Positions 23,177 through 37,227 of a DNA stretch of 39,584 nt are shown here, one piece after another (within the stretch, counting starts at the first letter, position 1; every line of letters begins with the position of its first letter). Location: assembly GCA_002773415.1 (NCBI GenBank), contig PFBD01000002.1:14923-54506 (forward strand). Direction: 5' to 3'. Under the pieces are notes generated by a model that saw only the letters and a program-made list of their open reading frames with translations, was not told the origin of the DNA and made no database searches. Both the position numbers and the translations under genes were made by a program. The stretch is from Candidatus Harrisonbacteria bacterium CG10_big_fil_rev_8_21_14_0_10_49_15. GTDB lineage: Bacteria; Patescibacteriota; Minisyncoccia; UBA6257; 1-14-0-10-44-23.

Positions 23177-23686
23177 ATGAAAAAGAGAAGTGAAAAGCAA
23201 CAGTTGGTTATCTATCAGGCACCGAGTGGGGCGATTGAGCTGCGCGGGGATTTTTCGCACGAGACTATCTGGGCGACACAAGCAAATATTGCCGAATTGT
23301 TTGGCACAAAAAGACCGGCGATTACTAAGCATCTAAGAAACATTTTTAAAGAAGAAGAGCTTAATGAAAAATCGGTATGTTCCATTTTGGAACATACTGC
23401 CGCGGACGATAAAACATATAAAACGCAATACTACAATCTGGATGCAATTATTGCTGTTGGGTACAGAGTGAATTCGAAGACCGCGACGCAGTTCCGTCAG
23501 TGGGCCACAAAGACACTGCGTGAGCATATTGCGAAGGGCTACACCATTAATCGCAGACAGATTGGTAAGAACTACGACGCTTTCATGAAGGCGGTTAGAA
23601 AATTGGTGGCTGAGCCTATTTTAGCTGAATGCGCCACCCGGGTGGCGTATTCAGGGGAGCAGTTTCGATTTGAAAAAGGATCGTAA
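23177..23686 (+). CDS. RhuM-family (virulence RhuM-like) protein, C-terminally truncated
   Basis: TWATQANIAELFGTKRPAITKHLRNIFKEEEL...YNLDAIIAVGYRVNSKTATQFRQWATKTLREHI; ends in palindromic repeat sequence. Confidence 0.8.
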   Translation: MKKRSEKQQLVIYQAPSGAIELRGDFSHETIWATQANIAELFGTKRPAITKHLRNIFKEEELNEKSVCSILEHTAADDKTYKTQYYNLDAIIAVGYRVNSKTATQFRQWATKTLREHIAKGYTINRRQIGKNYDAFMKAVRKLVAEPILAECATRVAYSGEQFRFEKGS

Positions 23687-23705
23687 AACCAGCATACTGA
23701 CGTGG

Positions 23706-24362
23706 ATGTATATTTTTTTGGATGAAAGTGGCCAGTTCACTAAACATAATCATGAGGAATATTTTGTCGTGGGTTCTTTTACGATTGGTGACCAGCGCCG
23801 GACAGATAAGGCTTTTAGGAGTTGGTTCTGTTCAAAGTTTCCTAAAAAGATGCGCACGCAGAGTGAGATAAAGTGGTCTGCAACAGGGATTGATGATCCA
23901 TTGCGACTAAAGACAATACGGCGCATCGCTAAGCTTGATGTTCGGATTCGATACGGCTTCCTGCTTCGTAAACGGATTCCGGACACTTATCTTAGAAAAG
24001 GTAAAATTGAAGGTGGGTTGCTTTATACTAATATCATAGCCGAAGTTCTAGAGATGTATTTACCTGTTAATGAAAAAGAAATTCACATTTTTTGTGACCG
24101 TCGGTCGCTTAAAGGAATGAAGGTCGCTCAATTTACCCAAGCAATTAAAGCCCACCTGTTGCCTCTTTGTTCTCCGGATACGCTCATCGATGTAGAGATG
24201 ATTGATTCTACCGCAAATGCGAATATTCAGATTGCGGACTGGATAGCGGGAGCTCTTGCATATTATTTAGAGAAGAAGCCTTCTGGTGAAGAATATTATC
24301 GGATTTTAAAAAATAACTTTCTAGGAGAGGGGAAGGAGTTTTTTAATAATCGCTCTAAATAA
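23706..24362 (+). CDS. DUF3800 domain-containing protein
   Basis: MYIFLDESGQF ... IQIADWIAGALAYYLE; ATG 23706 preferred. Confidence 0.85.
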   Translation: MYIFLDESGQFTKHNHEEYFVVGSFTIGDQRRTDKAFRSWFCSKFPKKMRTQSEIKWSATGIDDPLRLKTIRRIAKLDVRIRYGFLLRKRIPDTYLRKGKIEGGLLYTNIIAEVLEMYLPVNEKEIHIFCDRRSLKGMKVAQFTQAIKAHLLPLCSPDTLIDVEMIDSTANANIQIADWIAGALAYYLEKKPSGEEYYRILKNNFLGEGKEFFNNRSK

Positions 24363-24370
24363 AGCAGTAT

Positions 24371-24519
24371 CAAAAAAGGCGGCCTAGGGCCGTCTTTTTT
24401 GATAGAAGCAGCGTCTTGTAGGATGAAGCTCTCCAGTTTTATCGCAAGTTTCCAAGCGATGTCCCAGATCCTCTGAGGGAACACCGGAGCACCCTATAAG
24501 TTATTATTGCATGCTTCTA
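24371..24519 (-). ncRNA. Putative structured small RNA A, convergent to the DUF3800 gene
   Basis: Minus-strand promoter TTGACT (24552-24547)-16 nt-TATAGT (24530-24525); closing stem gatagaagca/tgcttctatc (24512-24521/24401-24410); terminator 24372-24400. Confidence 0.55.
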
Positions 24520-24587
24520 TCTGCACTATACCAAAAATTTGCGAAAAGTCAATGAATTGTGGATAAGTGTCAAATTTGATTTAGGCT

Positions 24588-24740
24588 TCAACTATCCGGA
24601 AATTCCGGATAGTTGAGGATAGGAATGTGCAAAAATTGCACAATGGTGAACACTCTGCCAACTAATTCCAAGTCGGAACTAGTTGGCCAGCTGTTGCATT
24701 TTTTGCAACAGCTCAGGATTATGCAAAAAATGCATAATCC
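24588..24740. repeat. Run of five consecutive palindromes of unrelated sequence
   Basis: 24588-24616, 24626-24642, 24657-24687, 24689-24713, 24716-24740; four perfect, one with a single mismatch. Confidence 0.9.
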
Positions 24741-24906: not shown

Positions 24907-25380
24907 ATGTCGCTTGATTTAGAAAACTTCGAAGAAGTAAGGATGGGGGGCGAGGATCTCTATAAAACTCTTGACGAGGTGTATTGTCCGTACTTTAAAA
25001 GTAAGATTTCTTTTAATTCTCAAGGGCTGGAACATTTAAAATTCAAGCAACAACGAAAAGCTAGATCACAGCAGGATCAATATATGAGATTTAAATTGTT
25101 GCATCTTGCACCCGTTGTATTAAAAGCATCGTCAACGCTTCAGGGTATTTGGGAAACTAAGAATTTTGAACGAATTCGAATTCACAGCAGGACAGACACT
25201 GTTTTGAAAATAGTTACTTATTATGAATTTGTTGCTGTTGTTGAAAAAATCAGAGTTAAGGTTATTGTAAAGCAGATAGAGGGCGGAAATATGTTTTTCT
25301 GGAGTATTATTCCTTATTGGGGAGTTGATAAAAATACAAAAAAGAGAAAGTTATATAGTGGCTATCCTAAAGATGACTAG
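24907..25380 (+). CDS. Hypothetical protein, possibly PBECR/RelE-like nuclease fold
   Basis: Pattern ISFNSQGLEHLKFKQQRKARSQQDQYMRFKLLHLAP...RVKVIVKQIEGGNMFFWSIIPYW is reminiscent of phage-type RelE/barnase-like domains; not confirmed. Confidence 0.45.
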   Translation: MSLDLENFEEVRMGGEDLYKTLDEVYCPYFKSKISFNSQGLEHLKFKQQRKARSQQDQYMRFKLLHLAPVVLKASSTLQGIWETKNFERIRIHSRTDTVLKIVTYYEFVAVVEKIRVKVIVKQIEGGNMFFWSIIPYWGVDKNTKKRKLYSGYPKDD

Positions 25381-25384
25381 AAAC

Positions 25385-25470
25385 AAAAAATCCGTCAAAA
25401 GACGGGTTTTTTGTTAGTGTTTGGTTACAGCTTATGTATTAGCCGTGAGAGGGCGAACCCTCCAAACACC
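25385..25470 (-). ncRNA. Putative structured small RNA B, convergent to the 24907 ORF
   Basis: TTGACT (25504-25499)-16 nt-TATGTT (25482-25477); predicted start at stem gguguuugg/ccaaacac; two inner hairpins; terminator 25385-25413. Confidence 0.55.
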
Positions 25471-25644
25471 ATATGAAACATAGCATGATTGCGTGAAAAG
25501 TCAATGAATTTGGGGATAAGTGGCTGGCCGGCAGAGCCGGCAATTTCTAATTGGTCTAAGGAAGGATAGTAAACAAGTGGCAAGTAACGAGTAATGAGGA
25601 ATGAGGAATGAGGGGGGAGAATAGAAATTTGCTATACTTTGAAT

Positions 25645-26337: not shown

Positions 26338-26450
26338 TTTTGAGTTGAAAAAAGCCGGAAAAAGGGCGATAATGACGGTAAATCAGCTACCCTGCGTGTT
26401 TGGGGTGGGCGACGGAGAGAATTGCTCTAAGGGGGGGTGCGAATAAATTT

Positions 26451-29400
26451 ATGAAAAATTTACCCAAGATTATAGACAATCAAAGAAAGAAATTATTAGA
26501 TTCTTTAATTGAAGCTAGTAATAATTTTGATGAGATATCAATAGCGACTGGTTACTGGGATCTTGAGGCGACGGCGCTTCTTTTGCCGTATTTAAAGAAC
26601 TATAAGAAAATCCGTCTTCTAATAGGGAGAGAGCCATTGATTCCTCGTCATCAATTAAACGAAGTGGAGCCGGATTTTCCAGATAAGGATATTTTCGAGG
26701 ATTTACAGAAGTTAAAAATTGATAGCAATTTAAAACCAACGGTTAGAGAGCTCAAACTATTGGTTGATAATAAAATTCTTGAAGTAAAAGTATTTAAAAA
26801 GGCTTTTTTGCATGCTAAATGTTATATTTTTGGAAATTTTGAATCAGAAAATGCTTTAGGTATTATTGGGTCATCAAATTTTACAAAAAATGGCCTCACA
26901 ATAAGTCGTGAATTAAACGCTGGCGAAGATGATCAGCGAGTAGTTCAATTTAACCCCAAAAATGAAACCCAAGAACATGGTCATTTGTCTTGGTTTGAGG
27001 AGGTCTGGGCGGATGATGGTTGTATCGAGTGGACTGGAAATTTTATCGAATTAGTGGACACTTCAATCCATGGTGAGCTTCTTTTTAGTCCTTATGAAAT
27101 GTATATCAAGACACTCGATTTTATGTATGGCGATCTTTTGAAAGAGGATAGAGAAATCGAAGCCCTTTCTGATCGCAAGCTACAGAATTTTCAAGAAAGA
27201 AGCGTTAAACAAATACTTTGGCGGTTGGATAAGAATGGCGTAGCTATGCTCGCTGATTCTGTTGGTTTGGGCAAAACCATTACCGCTATTGGTGTTATTC
27301 GCCAATATACGGGCCGAAGGATAATTGTAATTGCACCTAAATCACTTATAGGACAATGGGAAAATGAAATAGCCAGAGAGAGGATTTTGGGGGTTACGGT
27401 TGTTTCTATGCAGAATAAAAATCAAATAGATGAAGAACGGAAGAAAGATCGTTATATGCCGATTAGTTTGTTCGTTATAGATGAATCTCATAACTTGCGA
27501 TCCCATAATAGCAAGAGGTTCCAGCAAATAAGCGAATGGTTAGTTGATAATTCAGACGCCAATACTTTACTGCTCACAGCAACGCCGGTAAACAACTCTA
27601 TTGACGATTTGACAAATCAAATTTTACTAGGTACTCGTGGCGAGCAGGACATTTTGCAAGTTAATGTCCGTAATTCCGAAGGCGTAATTAAGTCAAGGTC
27701 TTTTTTTGATGCTCTTTTTGAATTAAAAAAACGAATTAGCCAAAATCGTGCGCAAGGCAATGATATGGCACCGATTTATAAAGAAGCACGCCAAGTAATT
27801 GATCCGATCCTGCGCGAGTTTGTTATTAGAAACACCCGCCAAAGCATTGAAGAGGAATTGGCGGGTAAAGGCTTGGAAATTGATGGTAAAGAATTTCATT
27901 TTCCAAAAATTAAGGTTTCCAATGAGACTTTTAATTCCGGGGACTATCAAAGTATTGCAATCTCCTCTGTCATTGAATCAATTGAAAAAACTTCTGTTGA
28001 AAAAATTCAAGAAACTACGGATATTCTTGTTCATCCACTACGCCAATTAGTAGAATTAAAAAACGAAGCAATTGATACTTCTGATAAATCAATCATTTAT
28101 CGCTTGTATCAATATATCCTTTCCTTGTCCTTCATTCCGTACAGAACGGCAATGTATGATCATAAAGTGTATGGCAAAACTCTTGAAGAAATAAAAAATA
28201 CTAAATTTACCAAAGAAACAAAGAAAAATCTTGGCTGGCAGTTAAGCATGTATGGCCTTTTACGCATAGTATTGCTCAAGAGATTTGAATCCTCATCATA
28301 TGCATTATTGGCATCGGTCAAAAAATATCAAAGAAGGCTAAAAACATTTGAAGATATTTTAATTCAAGAAAATTTACTATTAAATCTCTCTGATATTGAT
28401 GATATTTTAGATGAATATGAGGCAGAGGACGGTGAAAATTTAGATTTAACTGATGATGAAATTATAGAAAAGGCTAAAAAGCTCGGGACAAAAATATCAA
28501 AAGATTCACACAATATTACTGCAATCAAGGAAGATATTAATTCGGAAAATAAAATACTTACGGCAATAGTAGAGCTAACTGAACAATTTAAAAGTAAAGA
28601 CAAGAAATTGGAAGTATTTTTGGGGAAAGTGGTAGAGATCGCCAAAAATGATCCGAAGAAAAAAATACTTATTTTTTCTTTCTTTGCTGATACGGTTCGA
28701 TATTTGAAGGAAAATATTTTAGATGGCTCTGAAAATATATTCACTGACGAAAATACCGAATTTGTATCTGGTAAAGAGCGAGTAAATGCCATGCAATCAG
28801 CTGAGAGATTTGCCCCTGTCGCCAAAGATGCACGCGAGCGTGTTGCCGAAAAAGATGAACTGACTTATTTATTCAGTACTGATGTTCTAGCCGAAGGTCA
28901 AAACTTGCAAGACTGCGGATTGCTGATAAATTATGATTTGCATTGGAATCCGGTGCGTATGATCCAGAGAAATGGCCGTATCAACAGACTTGGTTCGCCT
29001 CATCCCGAAATAGAAGTGATCAATATTGTCCCGAACAAAGAGCTGGATCAGTTTCTTGGTTTGGTTACCAAATTGGAAGATAAGATTAGTCTTATCAATG
29101 CAACTATCGGAAGTGATTCATCTGTCTTGGGTGAACAAATCAACCCGATTCATTACAAGGGGATTTATGACACCGACACCAACACCGCTACCGCAGAATA
29201 TTTGCGGCTAGAAAAAGAATCTGATGTTTTCACTGATGACCAATTTATTTCAGATCTCAAACATTTTAGAGAGCAAGCAACACCGGAACAACGAAATGCC
29301 CTAGAAAAAATCCCCGTATCAAAATGGGGTGTTGTTGATCAGTCAACAATTCTGCAATCACCAGAAGTTCTTGTTTTTTCTCAATCAGAGTTTTCTAATA

Positions 29401-29885
29401 ATCAAAAACAATTTACTTTCTATCGTAATAACAAAAGCGCGAACGCTCTTGATGTTTTATTGACCGGCGAAGCTTTGCAAATTTTACGATCAAACGATCA
29501 AGAAAGAAAAAAAGACAATATTTCTTTGGATAAAAAACTGCACCTAGAATATGTATCAAAAAATGGTCCGCAGATTACTAGATTTGAACGCAGCGCAGTT
29601 GGATTAACTAATTCCCAGCAAACTGTTCTTGATCAGGCGATGTCTGCCGGCTGGTCGGCAGCTGATCGTCAAAGACTGGAAGCTTTATTAACAACCCGTA
29701 ACGTTTTTCATGGAAGAATAGCGCGAAAATTATCTAGGCAAATGCGTGAAGTTATCAAAGAAGGCAAGCTGTCAGAAAGAAATGAAATCTTAGAAAAAAT
29801 TAAAAAAATGTTACCGGAGGAAAAAGCGCAGGTAAAAGTAGTTTCAGTAAGTCCCATATTTGGATTTTCTAGGGATAATAATTAG
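26451..29885 (+). CDS. PLD-domain + SNF2/superfamily II helicase (DISARM DrmD-like / restriction-associated)
   Basis: PLD-like FLHAKCYIFG...IGSSNFTKNGL; Walker A ADSVGLGKTITA, DESHNLR, TATPVNNS, IQRNGRINRLG. Confidence 0.85.
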   Translation: MKNLPKIIDNQRKKLLDSLIEASNNFDEISIATGYWDLEATALLLPYLKNYKKIRLLIGREPLIPRHQLNEVEPDFPDKDIFEDLQKLKIDSNLKPTVRELKLLVDNKILEVKVFKKAFLHAKCYIFGNFESENALGIIGSSNFTKNGLTISRELNAGEDDQRVVQFNPKNETQEHGHLSWFEEVWADDGCIEWTGNFIELVDTSIHGELLFSPYEMYIKTLDFMYGDLLKEDREIEALSDRKLQNFQERSVKQILWRLDKNGVAMLADSVGLGKTITAIGVIRQYTGRRIIVIAPKSLIGQWENEIARERILGVTVVSMQNKNQIDEERKKDRYMPISLFVIDESHNLRSHNSKRFQQISEWLVDNSDANTLLLTATPVNNSIDDLTNQILLGTRGEQDILQVNVRNSEGVIKSRSFFDALFELKKRISQNRAQGNDMAPIYKEARQVIDPILREFVIRNTRQSIEEELAGKGLEIDGKEFHFPKIKVSNETFNSGDYQSIAISSVIESIEKTSVEKIQETTDILVHPLRQLVELKNEAIDTSDKSIIYRLYQYILSLSFIPYRTAMYDHKVYGKTLEEIKNTKFTKETKKNLGWQLSMYGLLRIVLLKRFESSSYALLASVKKYQRRLKTFEDILIQENLLLNLSDIDDILDEYEAEDGENLDLTDDEIIEKAKKLGTKISKDSHNITAIKEDINSENKILTAIVELTEQFKSKDKKLEVFLGKVVEIAKNDPKKKILIFSFFADTVRYLKENILDGSENIFTDENTEFVSGKERVNAMQSAERFAPVAKDARERVAEKDELTYLFSTDVLAEGQNLQDCGLLINYDLHWNPVRMIQRNGRINRLGSPHPEIEVINIVPNKELDQFLGLVTKLEDKISLINATIGSDSSVLGEQINPIHYKGIYDTDTNTATAEYLRLEKESDVFTDDQFISDLKHFREQATPEQRNALEKIPVSKWGVVDQSTILQSPEVLVFSQSEFSNNQKQFTFYRNNKSANALDVLLTGEALQILRSNDQERKKDNISLDKKLHLEYVSKNGPQITRFERSAVGLTNSQQTVLDQAMSAGWSAADRQRLEALLTTRNVFHGRIARKLSRQMREVIKEGKLSERNEILEKIKKMLPEEKAQVKVVSVSPIFGFSRDNN

Positions 29886-29888
29886 TCC

Positions 29889-32800
29889 ATGAGTACCATT
29901 GAGATAAAAAAGCGACTTGATCCGCTTCTTAGACAACTTTCAACCGAAAGATCTTTGGATGTTGCGGAAAAGATCATTGCTGAATTAGTTGGGTTGCTCG
30001 ATATTAAAGTCGGTGACAGATTTTTGGTCAATATTCCACGAGTAGACGCCGAATTATCCAGATTCCAGCTTGCGCCGGGTTTTGCACGCCAAGCGGCTGC
30101 TTATGAGCTGCCTCACGAAGACAGTAAACCAATTGACTTGAAGCTTTTTTGGGTTAAAAAAGCTAGTAAAACGAACCTTTCTTGGCTTATCGGTCTTACT
30201 CCAAACTTTGAAGATGCTCTTTCAAATGATTATAAAAATATCGGGATCGATTTTGTTGTGCCGGAAGCTTGCGACAGTATCACGGTTTTGCTTTCCAATC
30301 GCTTCAAAGTTCGTGCGCTTGAACTTAAGGATCACATCACACCGACACAGCTGGAAATATTTGCCCAGTGGGCGAAGTTGTCTGAAATGGAGATTGCCGA
30401 TCAAAACGAATCAAAAAACAATTTGCACGCCAAGCTTTGGGAAAGTTTCAACTTTGAGCCGATTAATCGCAAATTTTATCTTGAATTGGTTGAACATTTT
30501 AGTATTTTGGTTCATCATCTCGAAAAGAATCTTGGTCGCAAGCCAGCAGTAATGTTTACCACTCGCTTGATCGGGCGCTTGCTTTTTACTTGGTTTTTAA
30601 AAAAGAAAAATTTGGTAAATAATGATAGTGATTATTTTTTTGTATCTGATCCAGGGAAGCAAGGTGAATATTACAAAAGTCAACTGGAAAAATTGTTTTT
30701 TGAAATACTAAATAGAGATGAGTTAGAGAGAAGTAACGGCGATAGGATAACGCCATATTTAAATGGTGGCCTTTTTGATATAAGCACCACTGATTTTTAC
30801 GGTGATCCAAAACTCACTTTCCCTAACGGATATTTCAATCAGCTTTTTAATACTCTCAATAAATATAACTTTACGGTTGATGAAAGTAGTCCGGAATTTC
30901 AACATGTCGCTATTGATCCAGAAATGTTGGGTCGTATTTTTGAAAGTTTACTTGCCGAGCAAATTGACGAGAATACTGGCAACAGCAAAAAGAAAGCTAC
31001 GGGAGCATTCTATACACCACGAGATATTGTAAGCTATATGTGCGAACAATCACTTATTGAGTATTTAAAAACAAAAATTTCTGATTCGCCAGACCGTGAT
31101 CGTCGCATAGATGAGCTCGTGCGCATGCCAGAGGCGATTTTCCGCGATCAGGATCAAAATAAGCGTCGTGACTGGAAGCCTTATCGCGATTCAATTATCA
31201 AGGCATTAGAAGGCTCAAAAACCGAGTCTCCACTTACCGTACTTGATCCTGCGGTTGGCTCGGGTGCATTTCCGATGGGAATGCTTCATTTGCTCGTGAA
31301 AGTGTATTCTCGCCTTGATCCGAAATTTGAAAAGGATATTTCAAAACTCAAGCGTGATATTTTGTCACGATCTTTGTATGGTGTGGATATTGAGCAAACT
31401 GCCATTGAAATTACTCGTTTGCGAGCTTGGCTTTCAATTATTGTGGATATTCCAGAAGGCGAAAAAGTTGAGCCACTTCCAAATCTTGAGTTTAAATTTG
31501 TTTGTGCCAACACGCTGATCCCTCTTAATAATACAGAGCAAGCCACATTTTTTACTGATCATAGCCTTAAAGACAAATTGATTAAAATTCGGGATGATTA
31601 TTTTAGGACAAGTAGTAAAACAAAAAAAGAAAAACTGCAAAAAGATTATTTAAAACTCACGCAAAGTGCGAGCTTGTTTGATAATAAGAAAACTCAACAG
31701 CTAAAAAGTTATAAACCCTTTGATATAAGCTCATCATCAGAATTTTACGATCCGGAATTAATGCATGGAGTTTCTGCTTTTGATATTGTGATTGGAAATC
31801 CGCCGTATGTGCGTGCTGATAACCCCGCAATGAAAGAGCAAAGAAAATTAATAATGGAATCAAAAACTTATCAAACACTTTATGAAAAGTGGGACTTGTA
31901 TGTTGCTTTCATTGAAAAAGGTTATAATTTATTAAATCAAAATGGAATAATTGAGTTTATTATTCCAGATGCATATATGGCATCAAAATATGCTATCAAA
32001 TCTCACAATTATTTTTTACAAAATTCTATTATTAGTCGCATAAACTTTCTTAATGAAATAAAAGTATTTGAAGCCGCAGTAAAAAATATAATTATTGAAT
32101 ATAGAAAAGGTATTAATTCTGATAATATTCCGTTGAAAATAAAACACACTCCAACATTTGAGAATTTTATAATGCTTCCGTCAAAATCGCAGAAACAAAT
32201 TGGAGAATTTGCTTTCAAAATTAATAATGAAAACAAAAGTATCGGTAATCTGGTTAATTCAATCAAATGGGGTGAAATTTGTTATGTAAGCGTTGGGTTA
32301 GTTTTACAATCGGAAGAAAAATTATATAAAGGAGAATTTATTAAAGAAGACCTGATATCTAACGAGCAAGATAAAATTCACAACAAAGAATATGTAGAGG
32401 CCAAGTGGATAAATAAATATTGTGTCAAAAAAAATAAGTATCTTGAATGGAACACGCAGAGGGTCCCCGCTAAAATTAGAAGGCCAACATTTCCAGAGCT
32501 TTATACTCCAGAAAAAATAATGATGGGAGGAATGACGGGGGCAGTTATTGATGGTAAAGGATTATTATGCAACCACAGCATCGATGTTTCTGTTTTGTGG
32601 ATATCATTGAAAGATGTAAATAATAGAAGTATCACTAGTAGTATTCAAAAGGATTTTAAAATAAAAGAAACAACTGAATTTAGAAAAAAACTTGAAGACA
32701 ATTCAAGCAAATTTGGTCTAAAATATTTATTGGCTATTCTAAACTCAAAATTTGCAAATTATTTCCTTAACCAAGTGCGAAGAAGTCAGATTGGATTCTA

Positions 32801-33005
32801 TCCCGATGATCTTAAAAAATTACCAATAAAAAATATTGCATTATCTGGCCAGCAAATCTTTATAGATTTAGTTGATCAAATTTTAACTCTCAAAAAACAA
32901 AATAAAGAGGCGGATACCAAAAATCTTGAAGCACAAATTGATCAGCTTGTTTATAAACTTTACGGCCTGACTGAAGATGAGATAGGAATTGTGGAGGCGA
33001 GCTAA
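29889..33005 (+). CDS. Eco57I-type N6-adenine DNA methyltransferase / restriction-modification protein
   Basis: TVLDPAVGSGAFPMGMLHLL (motif I), DIVIGNPPYVRADNPAMKEQ (motif IV), GAFYTPRDIVSYM. Confidence 0.92.
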   Translation: MSTIEIKKRLDPLLRQLSTERSLDVAEKIIAELVGLLDIKVGDRFLVNIPRVDAELSRFQLAPGFARQAAAYELPHEDSKPIDLKLFWVKKASKTNLSWLIGLTPNFEDALSNDYKNIGIDFVVPEACDSITVLLSNRFKVRALELKDHITPTQLEIFAQWAKLSEMEIADQNESKNNLHAKLWESFNFEPINRKFYLELVEHFSILVHHLEKNLGRKPAVMFTTRLIGRLLFTWFLKKKNLVNNDSDYFFVSDPGKQGEYYKSQLEKLFFEILNRDELERSNGDRITPYLNGGLFDISTTDFYGDPKLTFPNGYFNQLFNTLNKYNFTVDESSPEFQHVAIDPEMLGRIFESLLAEQIDENTGNSKKKATGAFYTPRDIVSYMCEQSLIEYLKTKISDSPDRDRRIDELVRMPEAIFRDQDQNKRRDWKPYRDSIIKALEGSKTESPLTVLDPAVGSGAFPMGMLHLLVKVYSRLDPKFEKDISKLKRDILSRSLYGVDIEQTAIEITRLRAWLSIIVDIPEGEKVEPLPNLEFKFVCANTLIPLNNTEQATFFTDHSLKDKLIKIRDDYFRTSSKTKKEKLQKDYLKLTQSASLFDNKKTQQLKSYKPFDISSSSEFYDPELMHGVSAFDIVIGNPPYVRADNPAMKEQRKLIMESKTYQTLYEKWDLYVAFIEKGYNLLNQNGIIEFIIPDAYMASKYAIKSHNYFLQNSIISRINFLNEIKVFEAAVKNIIIEYRKGINSDNIPLKIKHTPTFENFIMLPSKSQKQIGEFAFKINNENKSIGNLVNSIKWGEICYVSVGLVLQSEEKLYKGEFIKEDLISNEQDKIHNKEYVEAKWINKYCVKKNKYLEWNTQRVPAKIRRPTFPELYTPEKIMMGGMTGAVIDGKGLLCNHSIDVSVLWISLKDVNNRSITSSIQKDFKIKETTEFRKKLEDNSSKFGLKYLLAILNSKFANYFLNQVRRSQIGFYPDDLKKLPIKNIALSGQQIFIDLVDQILTLKKQNKEADTKNLEAQIDQLVYKLYGLTEDEIGIVEAS

Positions 33006-33009
33006 TTTT

Positions 33010-33885
33010 ATGGAAAACGATACAAAAAAACTGCATATAAAATTTGAGGGTTCAATGATGGAATCTGGTCGGATTGATGCGAATGATTTTGCTCATACTG
33101 TTTCTGCTACGGCCGATCTTTTGCGATTTATTGCAAAAAATGTTGATGGTGCAAAAAATAAAACTTTGAGCGTTAATCTTTTAGCTCTCAGGCCTGGATC
33201 GTTTGAAGTTGACCTGGTGGTTAATCTCAAGGACTTGGTGCTGATTTCTCCTGCATTTGTACCACTACTCAACGTAAATACTGTTTCAACAGTCAAGCAG
33301 CTTATCGAAGTATTGAAATCACTTATTCAAGTTAAAAAATTTCTTAAAGGAGAGAAGCCAACCAAAATTGAGGTTGTTCAAAGTGACGGATCCCCGCATG
33401 TTGCTATCCATAACAATAGTGGGCAGGTTAATATTAACGTAACAGCTTACAATATTTTGCAGGGTGAGGGTGGAAATAAAAGATTACGTAAAATTTTTCA
33501 GCCACTTCTAAAAGAGGGAACAGAGTTAGAATCCATAGAAATAGTAGATGAGGATTCCGAGCGAATTCAAGTACTAAGGCAAGAGGCACCCTATTTTGAA
33601 AAAGATGAGGAATTACAGATGACGGAACATAAAGTTAGGGGAATTATTACAGCCATGGATCGTAAAACTTATAACGGGAAAATTTCTATTGGTGAAAAAA
33701 GAATAAATTTTGAAGTTGAAATTTCTGATATAAAAAATTTGGATAAGATTATTGATGGCTTAATAGAGTCAATGAAAAATAAAGTTACCATAATGGTAAT
33801 CGGTGAGGCCGCTTTTGATGCTGAATTAAATATAAAGAGCTTAAAAATTAAAGATATAGAAAAAGATCGGAAACTGTTTGATTAA
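33010..33885 (+). CDS. Conserved-looking protein of unknown function in helicase-methylase operon
   Basis: Starts 5 nt after methylase stop; MENDTKKLHIKFEGSMMESGRIDANDFAHTVSATADLLRFI... Confidence 0.6.
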   Translation: MENDTKKLHIKFEGSMMESGRIDANDFAHTVSATADLLRFIAKNVDGAKNKTLSVNLLALRPGSFEVDLVVNLKDLVLISPAFVPLLNVNTVSTVKQLIEVLKSLIQVKKFLKGEKPTKIEVVQSDGSPHVAIHNNSGQVNINVTAYNILQGEGGNKRLRKIFQPLLKEGTELESIEIVDEDSERIQVLRQEAPYFEKDEELQMTEHKVRGIITAMDRKTYNGKISIGEKRINFEVEISDIKNLDKIIDGLIESMKNKVTIMVIGEAAFDAELNIKSLKIKDIEKDRKLFD

Positions 33886-36108: not shown

Positions 36109-36374
36109 CCTCCCCGCCAGAGGGGAGGCAGGCTCGCGATTGTATCCTTTATTCCCTAATTCTGCAGAACTAGGGAATAAAGGGCGGGGTCGAGTTGAGC
36201 CTATCGACTCGCGAGCGAGTTTTCGGGTTTTTGGAAAGGGGTATTGGTTTGTGGGAGTAGGCGAGCCCTTCGACCCTGCTCAGGATAAAAAGTGATTTTA
36301 TAGACCGGTCATAGAAAGCAACGGCCGTTGCTTTCTATGACCGACGGCCGTGTAATAACATATGTCATTACACG
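36109..36374. repeat. Palindrome cluster
   Basis: 36109-36128, 36146-36183 (38 bp, 1 mismatch), 36306-36343 (38 bp perfect, no loop), 36349-36374 (26 bp, 1 mismatch). Confidence 0.9.
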
Positions 36375-36456
36375 TGTAAGGACATGGGTATCAATTACAT
36401 GCTTTCAAGTTAGGCTCGGGGATTTGCATTTTTTGTAAATGCGGTAGAATTAAGGT

Positions 36457-37065
36457 ATGAATCCGCAGGAGATTAAAAGTTTTTTTGAAAAATTTTCTGA
36501 AAAACGGTCGCGAACGATTGTGATCTTGGATTTTGGGAATGTTGTTAAATGGCAGGTTAGCTTGAAGTGGCGGATTGGAATTAGGCATCTGGGAAATATA
36601 GTTAAAAATTTTTCAACTGGGCAAAAATTTTTGCGCCGTTTTTATTATGGTTCTGATTATGGGCCAAATGAGAAAAGTTTGGATATGGATAACTGGTCGC
36701 GCGTAATGCTTGCGCAAGCTAATATGAGCGGTTTTGAGGTAGTTACCAAGCGAGTAAAATATATTCGTAGCCAGGATAATGTGTATGGCTATGAGAAGAA
36801 ATGTGATTTAGACGTGGAGATGGCTGTTGATTTGATCAGGGAGCGAGATAATTACGACAATATTGTTTTGTTCTCAGGTGATGGTGATTTGATGTACGCT
36901 GTTCGTTATTTAAATGCGGAGTTTGGGAAAAAATGCTATGTATTTGGAGCTAGAGATCATATTGGCCGGGAGGTCTTTGATGCTAAAAAAGATGGTATTG
37001 TGACTTCTATTTTCTTTACGGAGGATTTTGAATATCGTCTTAATATGGATAGAAATAGTCACTGA
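36457..37065 (+). CDS. NYN-domain (PIN-like RNase fold) protein
   Basis: IVILDFGNVVKW, KKCDLDVEMAVDLIRERDNYDNIVLFSGDGDLMYAVRYL. Confidence 0.85.
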   Translation: MNPQEIKSFFEKFSEKRSRTIVILDFGNVVKWQVSLKWRIGIRHLGNIVKNFSTGQKFLRRFYYGSDYGPNEKSLDMDNWSRVMLAQANMSGFEVVTKRVKYIRSQDNVYGYEKKCDLDVEMAVDLIRERDNYDNIVLFSGDGDLMYAVRYLNAEFGKKCYVFGARDHIGREVFDAKKDGIVTSIFFTEDFEYRLNMDRNSH

Positions 37066-37124
37066 AAATCAGAAATCCGCCCGGAGGCGGATTTCGATCA
37101 AATTCGAGTAAGCCCAAAGCTTAC
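37066..37124 (-). ncRNA. Putative small RNA C, convergent to NYN gene
   Basis: TTGACT (37159-37154)-17 nt-TATCGT (37136-37131); guaagc/gcuuac hairpin then gaaatccgcccggaggcggatttc terminator. Confidence 0.45.
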
Positions 37125-37227
37125 GAGGGTACGATATCAGGAAATAAGTGAAAAGTCAATGAAGTGTGGATAACTAAATTTTCTGCCACAGTTACATTTC
37201 CCACCTTTGCGGGGTTTTAATTGAAAC

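Follow-up and report, generated by a model that had tools for sequence, protein, structure and literature searches.

An NYN RNase-like gene and its convergent structured RNA form a candidate two-part accessory module in a Patescibacteria defense island

To our knowledge, experimental work on Patescibacteria is scarce, and we know of no function assigned to the DUF3800 RNAs, the family to which one RNA of the locus described here belongs. In the type I modules Fst/RNAII and TxpA/RatA, tiny membrane-peptide toxins are paired with an antisense RNA. Type III toxin-antitoxin (TA) systems (ToxIN, CptIN, TenpIN, and AbiQ) place a promoter-proximal RNA and a downstream toxin in one operon, and the antitoxin RNA consists of tandem repeats (PMC5086642). 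The Rfam abiF motif RNA (RF03085), as in AbiF/RCd22 of C. difficile, is a proven RNA antitoxin that binds and neutralizes its protein (PMC12373285). DUF3800 proteins have an RNase H fold and also occur in Cas12 loci (PMC10910872).

We analyzed a 39,584-nucleotide stretch from the genome of “Candidatus Harrisonbacteria” bacterium CG10_big_fil_rev_8_21_14_0_10_49_15, referred to here as the window. It contains three gene-RNA modules, A, B, and C, within one 13-kb defense island (Table 1). A preliminary description had proposed the same layout for all three, with an accessory gene on the plus strand, a shared terminator, and a short RNA read on the minus strand from a conserved promoter, and the coordinates agree with this arrangement.

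Table 1. Positions in the window of the features of modules A, B, and C
Feature	Position	Strand	Remarks
DUF3800 protein (PF12686), partner of RNA A	23670..24362	+	also matches PADLOC PDC-M04A
RNA A, Rfam DUF3800-V (RF02964)	24404..24518	-	65.1 bits vs gathering cut-off 37.4
Promoter block copy A	24543..24568	-	TTATCCACA at 24558-24566
LPD3-family protein, 157 aa, partner of RNA B	24907..25380	+	H43, R53 invariant; S133 nearly invariant
RNA B, three-way-junction structured RNA	25415..25472	-	model R1, 40 bits; not in Rfam
Promoter block copy B	25493..25519	-	TTATCCCCA-AATTCA-TTGACTTTTCAC; -10 TATGTT 25477-25482
NYN-domain (PIN-like) predicted RNase, 202 aa	36457..37065	+	stop codon at 37065
RNA C, ~58 nt, convergent with NYN gene	37067..37125	-	orthologous RNAs in L180-L182
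RNA C terminator stem, after linker	37094-37073	-	ends just past NYN stop codon
RNA C hairpin, 6 bp, GUAAGC/GCUUAC	37124-37108	-	
RNA C -10 element TATCGT	37131..37136	-	after 17-nt spacer
RNA C -35 element TTGACT	37154..37159	-	17-nt spacer to -10
TTATCCACA, exact DnaA-box consensus	37165..37173	-	5 bp upstream of RNA C -35

The product of the module C gene matched PF01936 at 1.5e-15, in line with its earlier assignment as an NYN protein, and acidic residues D25, D119, D142, and D144 are invariant in four orthologs. The domain match and the conserved acidic active-site residues both place it among the NYN/PIN-like nucleases. RNA C had been described as a unit of ~58 nt, with a guaagc/gcuuac hairpin and a terminator behind the NYN gene, and both the description and its coordinates proved accurate. 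The linker of the RNA consists largely of the U-tract of the NYN gene's terminator, seen from the opposite strand, which makes this terminator look bidirectional. We found no plausible reading frame in RNA C, and the RNAs lie outside the coding regions of their partner genes.

Among 294 genomes of the phylum, we found three close orthologs of the NYN protein, in G388 (65% identity), G179 (60%), and G207 (52%), all of which belong to other families. Directly behind each of the three stop codons are an opposite-strand hairpin, a AUUUUGAUC-like linker, and a terminator. In the alignment of these RNAs with that of the window, 60/60 pair cells are standard, and both sides have changed in 5 of the 15 pairs, with the small hairpin accounting for three of these; when the register is slid by one to three columns, paired cells fall to 23 to 50%. 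As judged from these four sequences, a small sample, the predicted hairpin is not a product of chance. A search for NYN orthologs in the order of G388 recovered none beyond G388 itself. Viral contigs held no LPD3 or NYN relatives of the module type. RNA C reached no Rfam family at the cut-off, and a permissive threshold returned only chance-level matches driven by the terminator.

More distant NYN genes likewise have convergent promoters and small hairpin/terminator units. A second NYN clade (L195, L200, L203, and L205) has a different convergent RNA downstream of the stop codon; its leader, ACUAAACRUG, is conserved, and its terminator hairpin is GC rich. Outside the module setting, too, the NYN domain is frequent, with a match at 1e-3 in 180/294 genomes. 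Perfect or near-perfect palindromes (e.g., CGGTCATAGAAAGCAACGGCCGTTGCTTTCTATGACCG) occupy the intergenic regions upstream of the NYN and LPD3 genes, at 36302-36382 and 24590-24740.

In module A, RNA A is convergent with the DUF3800 gene; the Pfam match confirms the partner named earlier, and the RNA itself falls in a known family. The module B protein had been called possibly RelE/barnase-like, a label that found no Pfam match in the protein itself; 14 of 20 homologs instead matched LPD3 (PF18798) weakly (best, 5e-6). BECR RNases carry a His in an N-terminal helix and a C-terminal Ser/Thr on the BECR fold (PMC5512222). The conserved His and Ser of LPD3 resemble this pattern without proving membership, as a single-sequence AlphaFold model (pLDDT 40) was too poor for a fold search and LPD3 found no match in the PDB. 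Homologs occur in 25/294 genomes, and searches of phages and plasmids yielded no LPD3.

RNA B also reached no Rfam family at the cut-off. It was found behind about 22 LPD3 homologs, and nearly all complete LPD3 loci have a closing stem with two inner hairpins right behind the stop codon. Across 12 aligned sequences, 93% of cells are paired, a level reached by 0/500 shuffles, and 12 of the 17 pairs show double changes. Among 59 loci, matches of the covariance model were confined to LPD3 loci. Genome-wide, RNA B matches (E<1e-3) were present in 22/290 genomes, of which 16 also have LPD3 (Fisher, 1.6e-15). Based on the conserved pairing, RNAs B and C, although they match no Rfam family, read as genuine structured RNAs. 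The proposal of an accessory gene joined to a convergent RNA is thus strongly supported, as the RNAs show covariation and accompany their genes throughout the phylum.

Six genomes with RNA B lack an intact LPD3 gene (G255, G183, G325, G345, G306, and G343). A broken LPD3 remnant lies beside the RNA in G255, G345 and G306 have no recognizable LPD3, and the short G343 match, which is inside a coding frame, may be spurious. In G183 (L247, G183:C5, 2230-2348), two RNA B units stand in tandem with no LPD3 gene nearby; a LOOT RNA lies within about 3 kb, as does an NYN gene that has a convergent RNA of its own. In G325 (L248, G325:C13, 2546-3163), an RNA B relative precedes, on the same strand, a PBECR3-like RNase gene (PF18812 at 5e-4, below Pfam's cut-off), with a terminator between them, which is a ToxIN-like order.

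The modules share their surroundings with other accessory genes, the region encoding Fic, RhuM, DUF3800, LPD3, HD, a PLD-SNF2 helicase, a type IIG restriction-methylase, PDC-S42, NYN, an HTH-Panacea antitoxin-like protein, and a nuclease. Between modules B and C (26400-33885), the PLD-SNF2 helicase (PADLOC C3a139), the restriction-methylase, and PDC-S42 stand in a row, as in a defense island. PADLOC assigns the DUF3800 protein to PDC-M04A and the LPD3 homologs to PDC-M04B, by name one candidate defense system. Such clustering recurs elsewhere: G303 has a DUF3800-V RNA at a distance of 1 kb from an LPD3 module, LPD3 adjoins a DUF3800-IX RNA in G229, and LPD3, a DUF3800-II RNA, and NYN share one 6.5-kb contig in G400.

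Convergent sigma-70-like promoters within 200 nt of the stop codon were present at 20/28 NYN loci (Fisher, 9e-23) and 16/23 LPD3 loci (Fisher, 8e-19), compared with 9/476 background genes from about two thirds of the source genome; module B was split at a piece boundary in this background count. For other genes in the NYN and LPD3 loci, the figure was 11/109. Within the covered part of the genome, the only convincing units of a gene and a convergent RNA were those of the window, and the remaining background promoter matches lay inside coding sequence or beside doubtful ORFs.

The promoter block of module C, GTGAAAAGTCAATGAAGTGTGGATAA, was found in the window letters at 37148-37173 on the minus strand; its recurrence there, its direction, and the TTGACT-17-TATCGT promoter were all located as described earlier. 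A 24-mer of the block with ≤3 mismatches allowed gave two matches on the minus strand, both exact (24543-24566 and 37150-37173), where chance predicts 0, and a shorter core picked up copy B at 25495-25513. This third copy is one base longer than A and C and has TTATCCCCA in place of TTATCCACA. In the entire 884-kb, 34-contig genome, the core TTCATTGACTTTTC (≤1 mismatch) occurs at three places, all within the window, and the exact block is restricted to this one genome. As a phylum-wide marker it was ruled out: a degenerate form gave 32 matches in 85k genomes, spread over unrelated phyla and at about chance level, and a search of 150 relatives gave one 3-mismatch match outside the source genome.

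The upstream element TTATCCACA, the DnaA-box consensus, lies in exact form 5 bp upstream of the -35 in copies A and C. The source genome has 23 copies, compared with 1 for the reversed pattern. Followed by TTGAC within 15 bases, the element occurs in 118/294 genomes (~218 matches versus 23 for the reversed control), and some of these matches are at the promoters of apparent dnaA genes (L083-L086). Two TTATCCACA boxes flank the -35 of these dnaA-like genes, which are apparently autoregulated in Patescibacteria. An exact box occurs in 7 of 41 module promoters, where 0.06 would be expected, and the number rises to 13 (1.7 expected) when one mismatch is allowed; most of these boxes lie immediately upstream of the -35. 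The predicted DnaA box is accordingly common to the modules as a widespread promoter feature of the phylum and is not their signature. Because the upstream half of the block is such a general feature, the promoter alone marks no module; the gene-RNA pairing is what is module specific.

MraZ is a possible alternative to DnaA as the predicted binder of the box in module promoters, because TGGGG/TGTGG repeats resembling TTATCCCCA and TTATCCACA lie upstream of an mraZ-like gene. In the source genome, a cluster of TTATCCCCA/TTATCCACA/TTATGCACA sites upstream of mraZ-mraW-like genes (L043, G000:C5, 2469-2650) could represent MraZ boxes, DnaA boxes, or both. In G014, a genome of the same order, five near-identical blocks of the form TTATCCACANNAGACTTGACAAGG...TATACT are each followed directly by a hairpin terminator (L113, G014:C6, 4989, 7949, 8763, and 9609, and the minus strand of L114). 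They may yield ~45-nt RNAs from DnaA-box promoters and, with four of them within 5 kb, are a parallel multi-copy case.

Taken together, the NYN gene and RNA C probably work together, and the RNA perhaps holds a toxin in check. RNA C would be the RNA component of an accessory module with two parts, transcribed from its own promoter toward the gene for the NYN RNase-like protein, and both transcripts would end at the shared bidirectional terminator. DUF3800 with RNA A and LPD3 with RNA B would be modules of like design built from unrelated proteins and RNAs. The RNA, made in excess, would fold, bind the protein, and restrain its nuclease activity, and the protein would be freed once transcription in the host ceases or the RNA is broken down, e.g., during phage attack. 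The layout, the covarying folds, the steady adjacency of gene and RNA, and the clustering are observed, whereas binding, inhibition, toxicity, and a part in defense are inferred. Our tentative choice, held with something less than confidence, is therefore an RNA-antitoxin-like module in which the RNA holds a nuclease, with type III logic in a non-type-III layout around an RNase-like protein.

All three partners are RNase-like by their predicted features, namely the intact acidic residues of NYN, the RNase H fold of DUF3800, and the conserved His and Ser of LPD3. These features, together with the precedent of the abiF motif RNA, favor an RNA-held nuclease. A toxin with an RNA antitoxin gains further support from the clade-specific RNAs, the clustering in a defense island, and the ToxIN-like RNA B homolog of G325. 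Counting against it are the convergent, single-copy layout, which is unlike type III operons; the RNA B copies that have no intact partner; and the shortness of RNA C, which is represented by four sequences, along with the commonness of the NYN domain elsewhere.

It is possible, though doubtful, that the RNA is instead a working partner, either in a ribonucleoprotein where, in the manner of crRNA- or omegaRNA-like RNAs, it would guide, activate, or present a target, or as the regulated substrate of the nuclease. Tight gene-RNA adjacency and covarying folds would suit any ribonucleoprotein, and the Cas12 association of DUF3800 proteins points the same way. RNA C, however, is very small, has no apparent guide-like segment, and preserves only the 6-bp hairpin outside its terminator. 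Less probable again, and in our view quite unlikely, is an action in cis on the convergent gene by transcriptional interference, antisense pairing with the 3′ UTR, or protection of the shared terminator. A convergent promoter and a bidirectional terminator right behind the stop codon are what such an action would use. Simple mRNA antisense is nevertheless unlikely because the RNAs leave the coding regions free, and the hairpin and three-way junction show strong covariation, whereas antisense action could do without compensatory pairs. Binding of the RNA to the protein, as the RNA-held nuclease would have it, is favored over these by the lack of coding overlap, the lack of a plausible frame, and the conservation of structure rather than complementarity.

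We consider it very improbable that the hairpins are DNA sites, such as recombination sites of mobile gene cassettes. One gene with one structured element, clustered in accessory islands, would fit cassettes, and a folded DNA strand would likewise covary; every element, however, is preceded by a -35/-10 promoter and followed by a terminator, all in one orientation, and A, B, and C share no core sequence. That the block is merely a strong generic promoter near arbitrary genes and the RNAs incidental, the outcome named beforehand as fatal to the module, is barely credible: it holds for the DnaA-box half, whose combination with the -35 precedes many unrelated genes of the phylum, but covariation and adjacency largely refute it for the gene-RNA pairing, since the core block is confined to three loci in the source genome and in other genomes the RNAs and their genes are conserved together irrespective of promoter.

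With NYN and LPD3 each having its own covarying convergent RNA and clustering with DUF3800 modules, what was a one-family oddity becomes a general gene-RNA design. This shared design suggests a single mechanism that can be tested, namely nucleases held by RNA in defense. It also adds two RNA elements absent from Rfam, B and C, one of which has enough sequences for a model. An unlikely but broader extension is that Patescibacteria have a wide class of RNA-controlled nuclease modules (DUF3800, LPD3, and NYN, each with its own convergent structured RNA), and that a subset of these RNAs would be expressed from DnaA-box promoters so that antitoxin supply tracks replication state.

Among known systems, type III TA systems resemble these modules in having a predicted RNase-like protein beside a small structured RNA, a terminator between them, and a likely logic of RNA in excess. 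Module C shows the first of these likenesses in its putative nuclease, NYN, and the covarying RNA C. Unlike type III antitoxins, RNA C is convergent with and 3′ of its gene and is single copy; the type III order appears only in the RNA B relative of G325, and a tandem pair of RNA B only in G183. No pseudoknot is shown here, and no Pfam match ties NYN or LPD3 to ToxN. Because order and repeats differ, module C is not a type III TA system by membership. Fst/RNAII and TxpA/RatA also have a convergent RNA and a shared bidirectional terminator, but the proteins of the present modules are RNase-like, and conservation falls on RNA structure instead of complementarity. In AbiF/RCd22, too, a structured RNA next to a conflict gene was found by computation; this RNA lies upstream of an Abi_2-family gene in two motif copies, whereas RNA C is convergent with the NYN gene. 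RNAs B and C differ from the DUF3800 RNA motifs (RF02964, DUF3800-V, and relatives) in their folds, their partners (LPD3 and NYN), and their lack of an Rfam match. Those motifs nevertheless include RNA A, are small structured RNAs convergent with an accessory gene, and cluster together with modules B and C.
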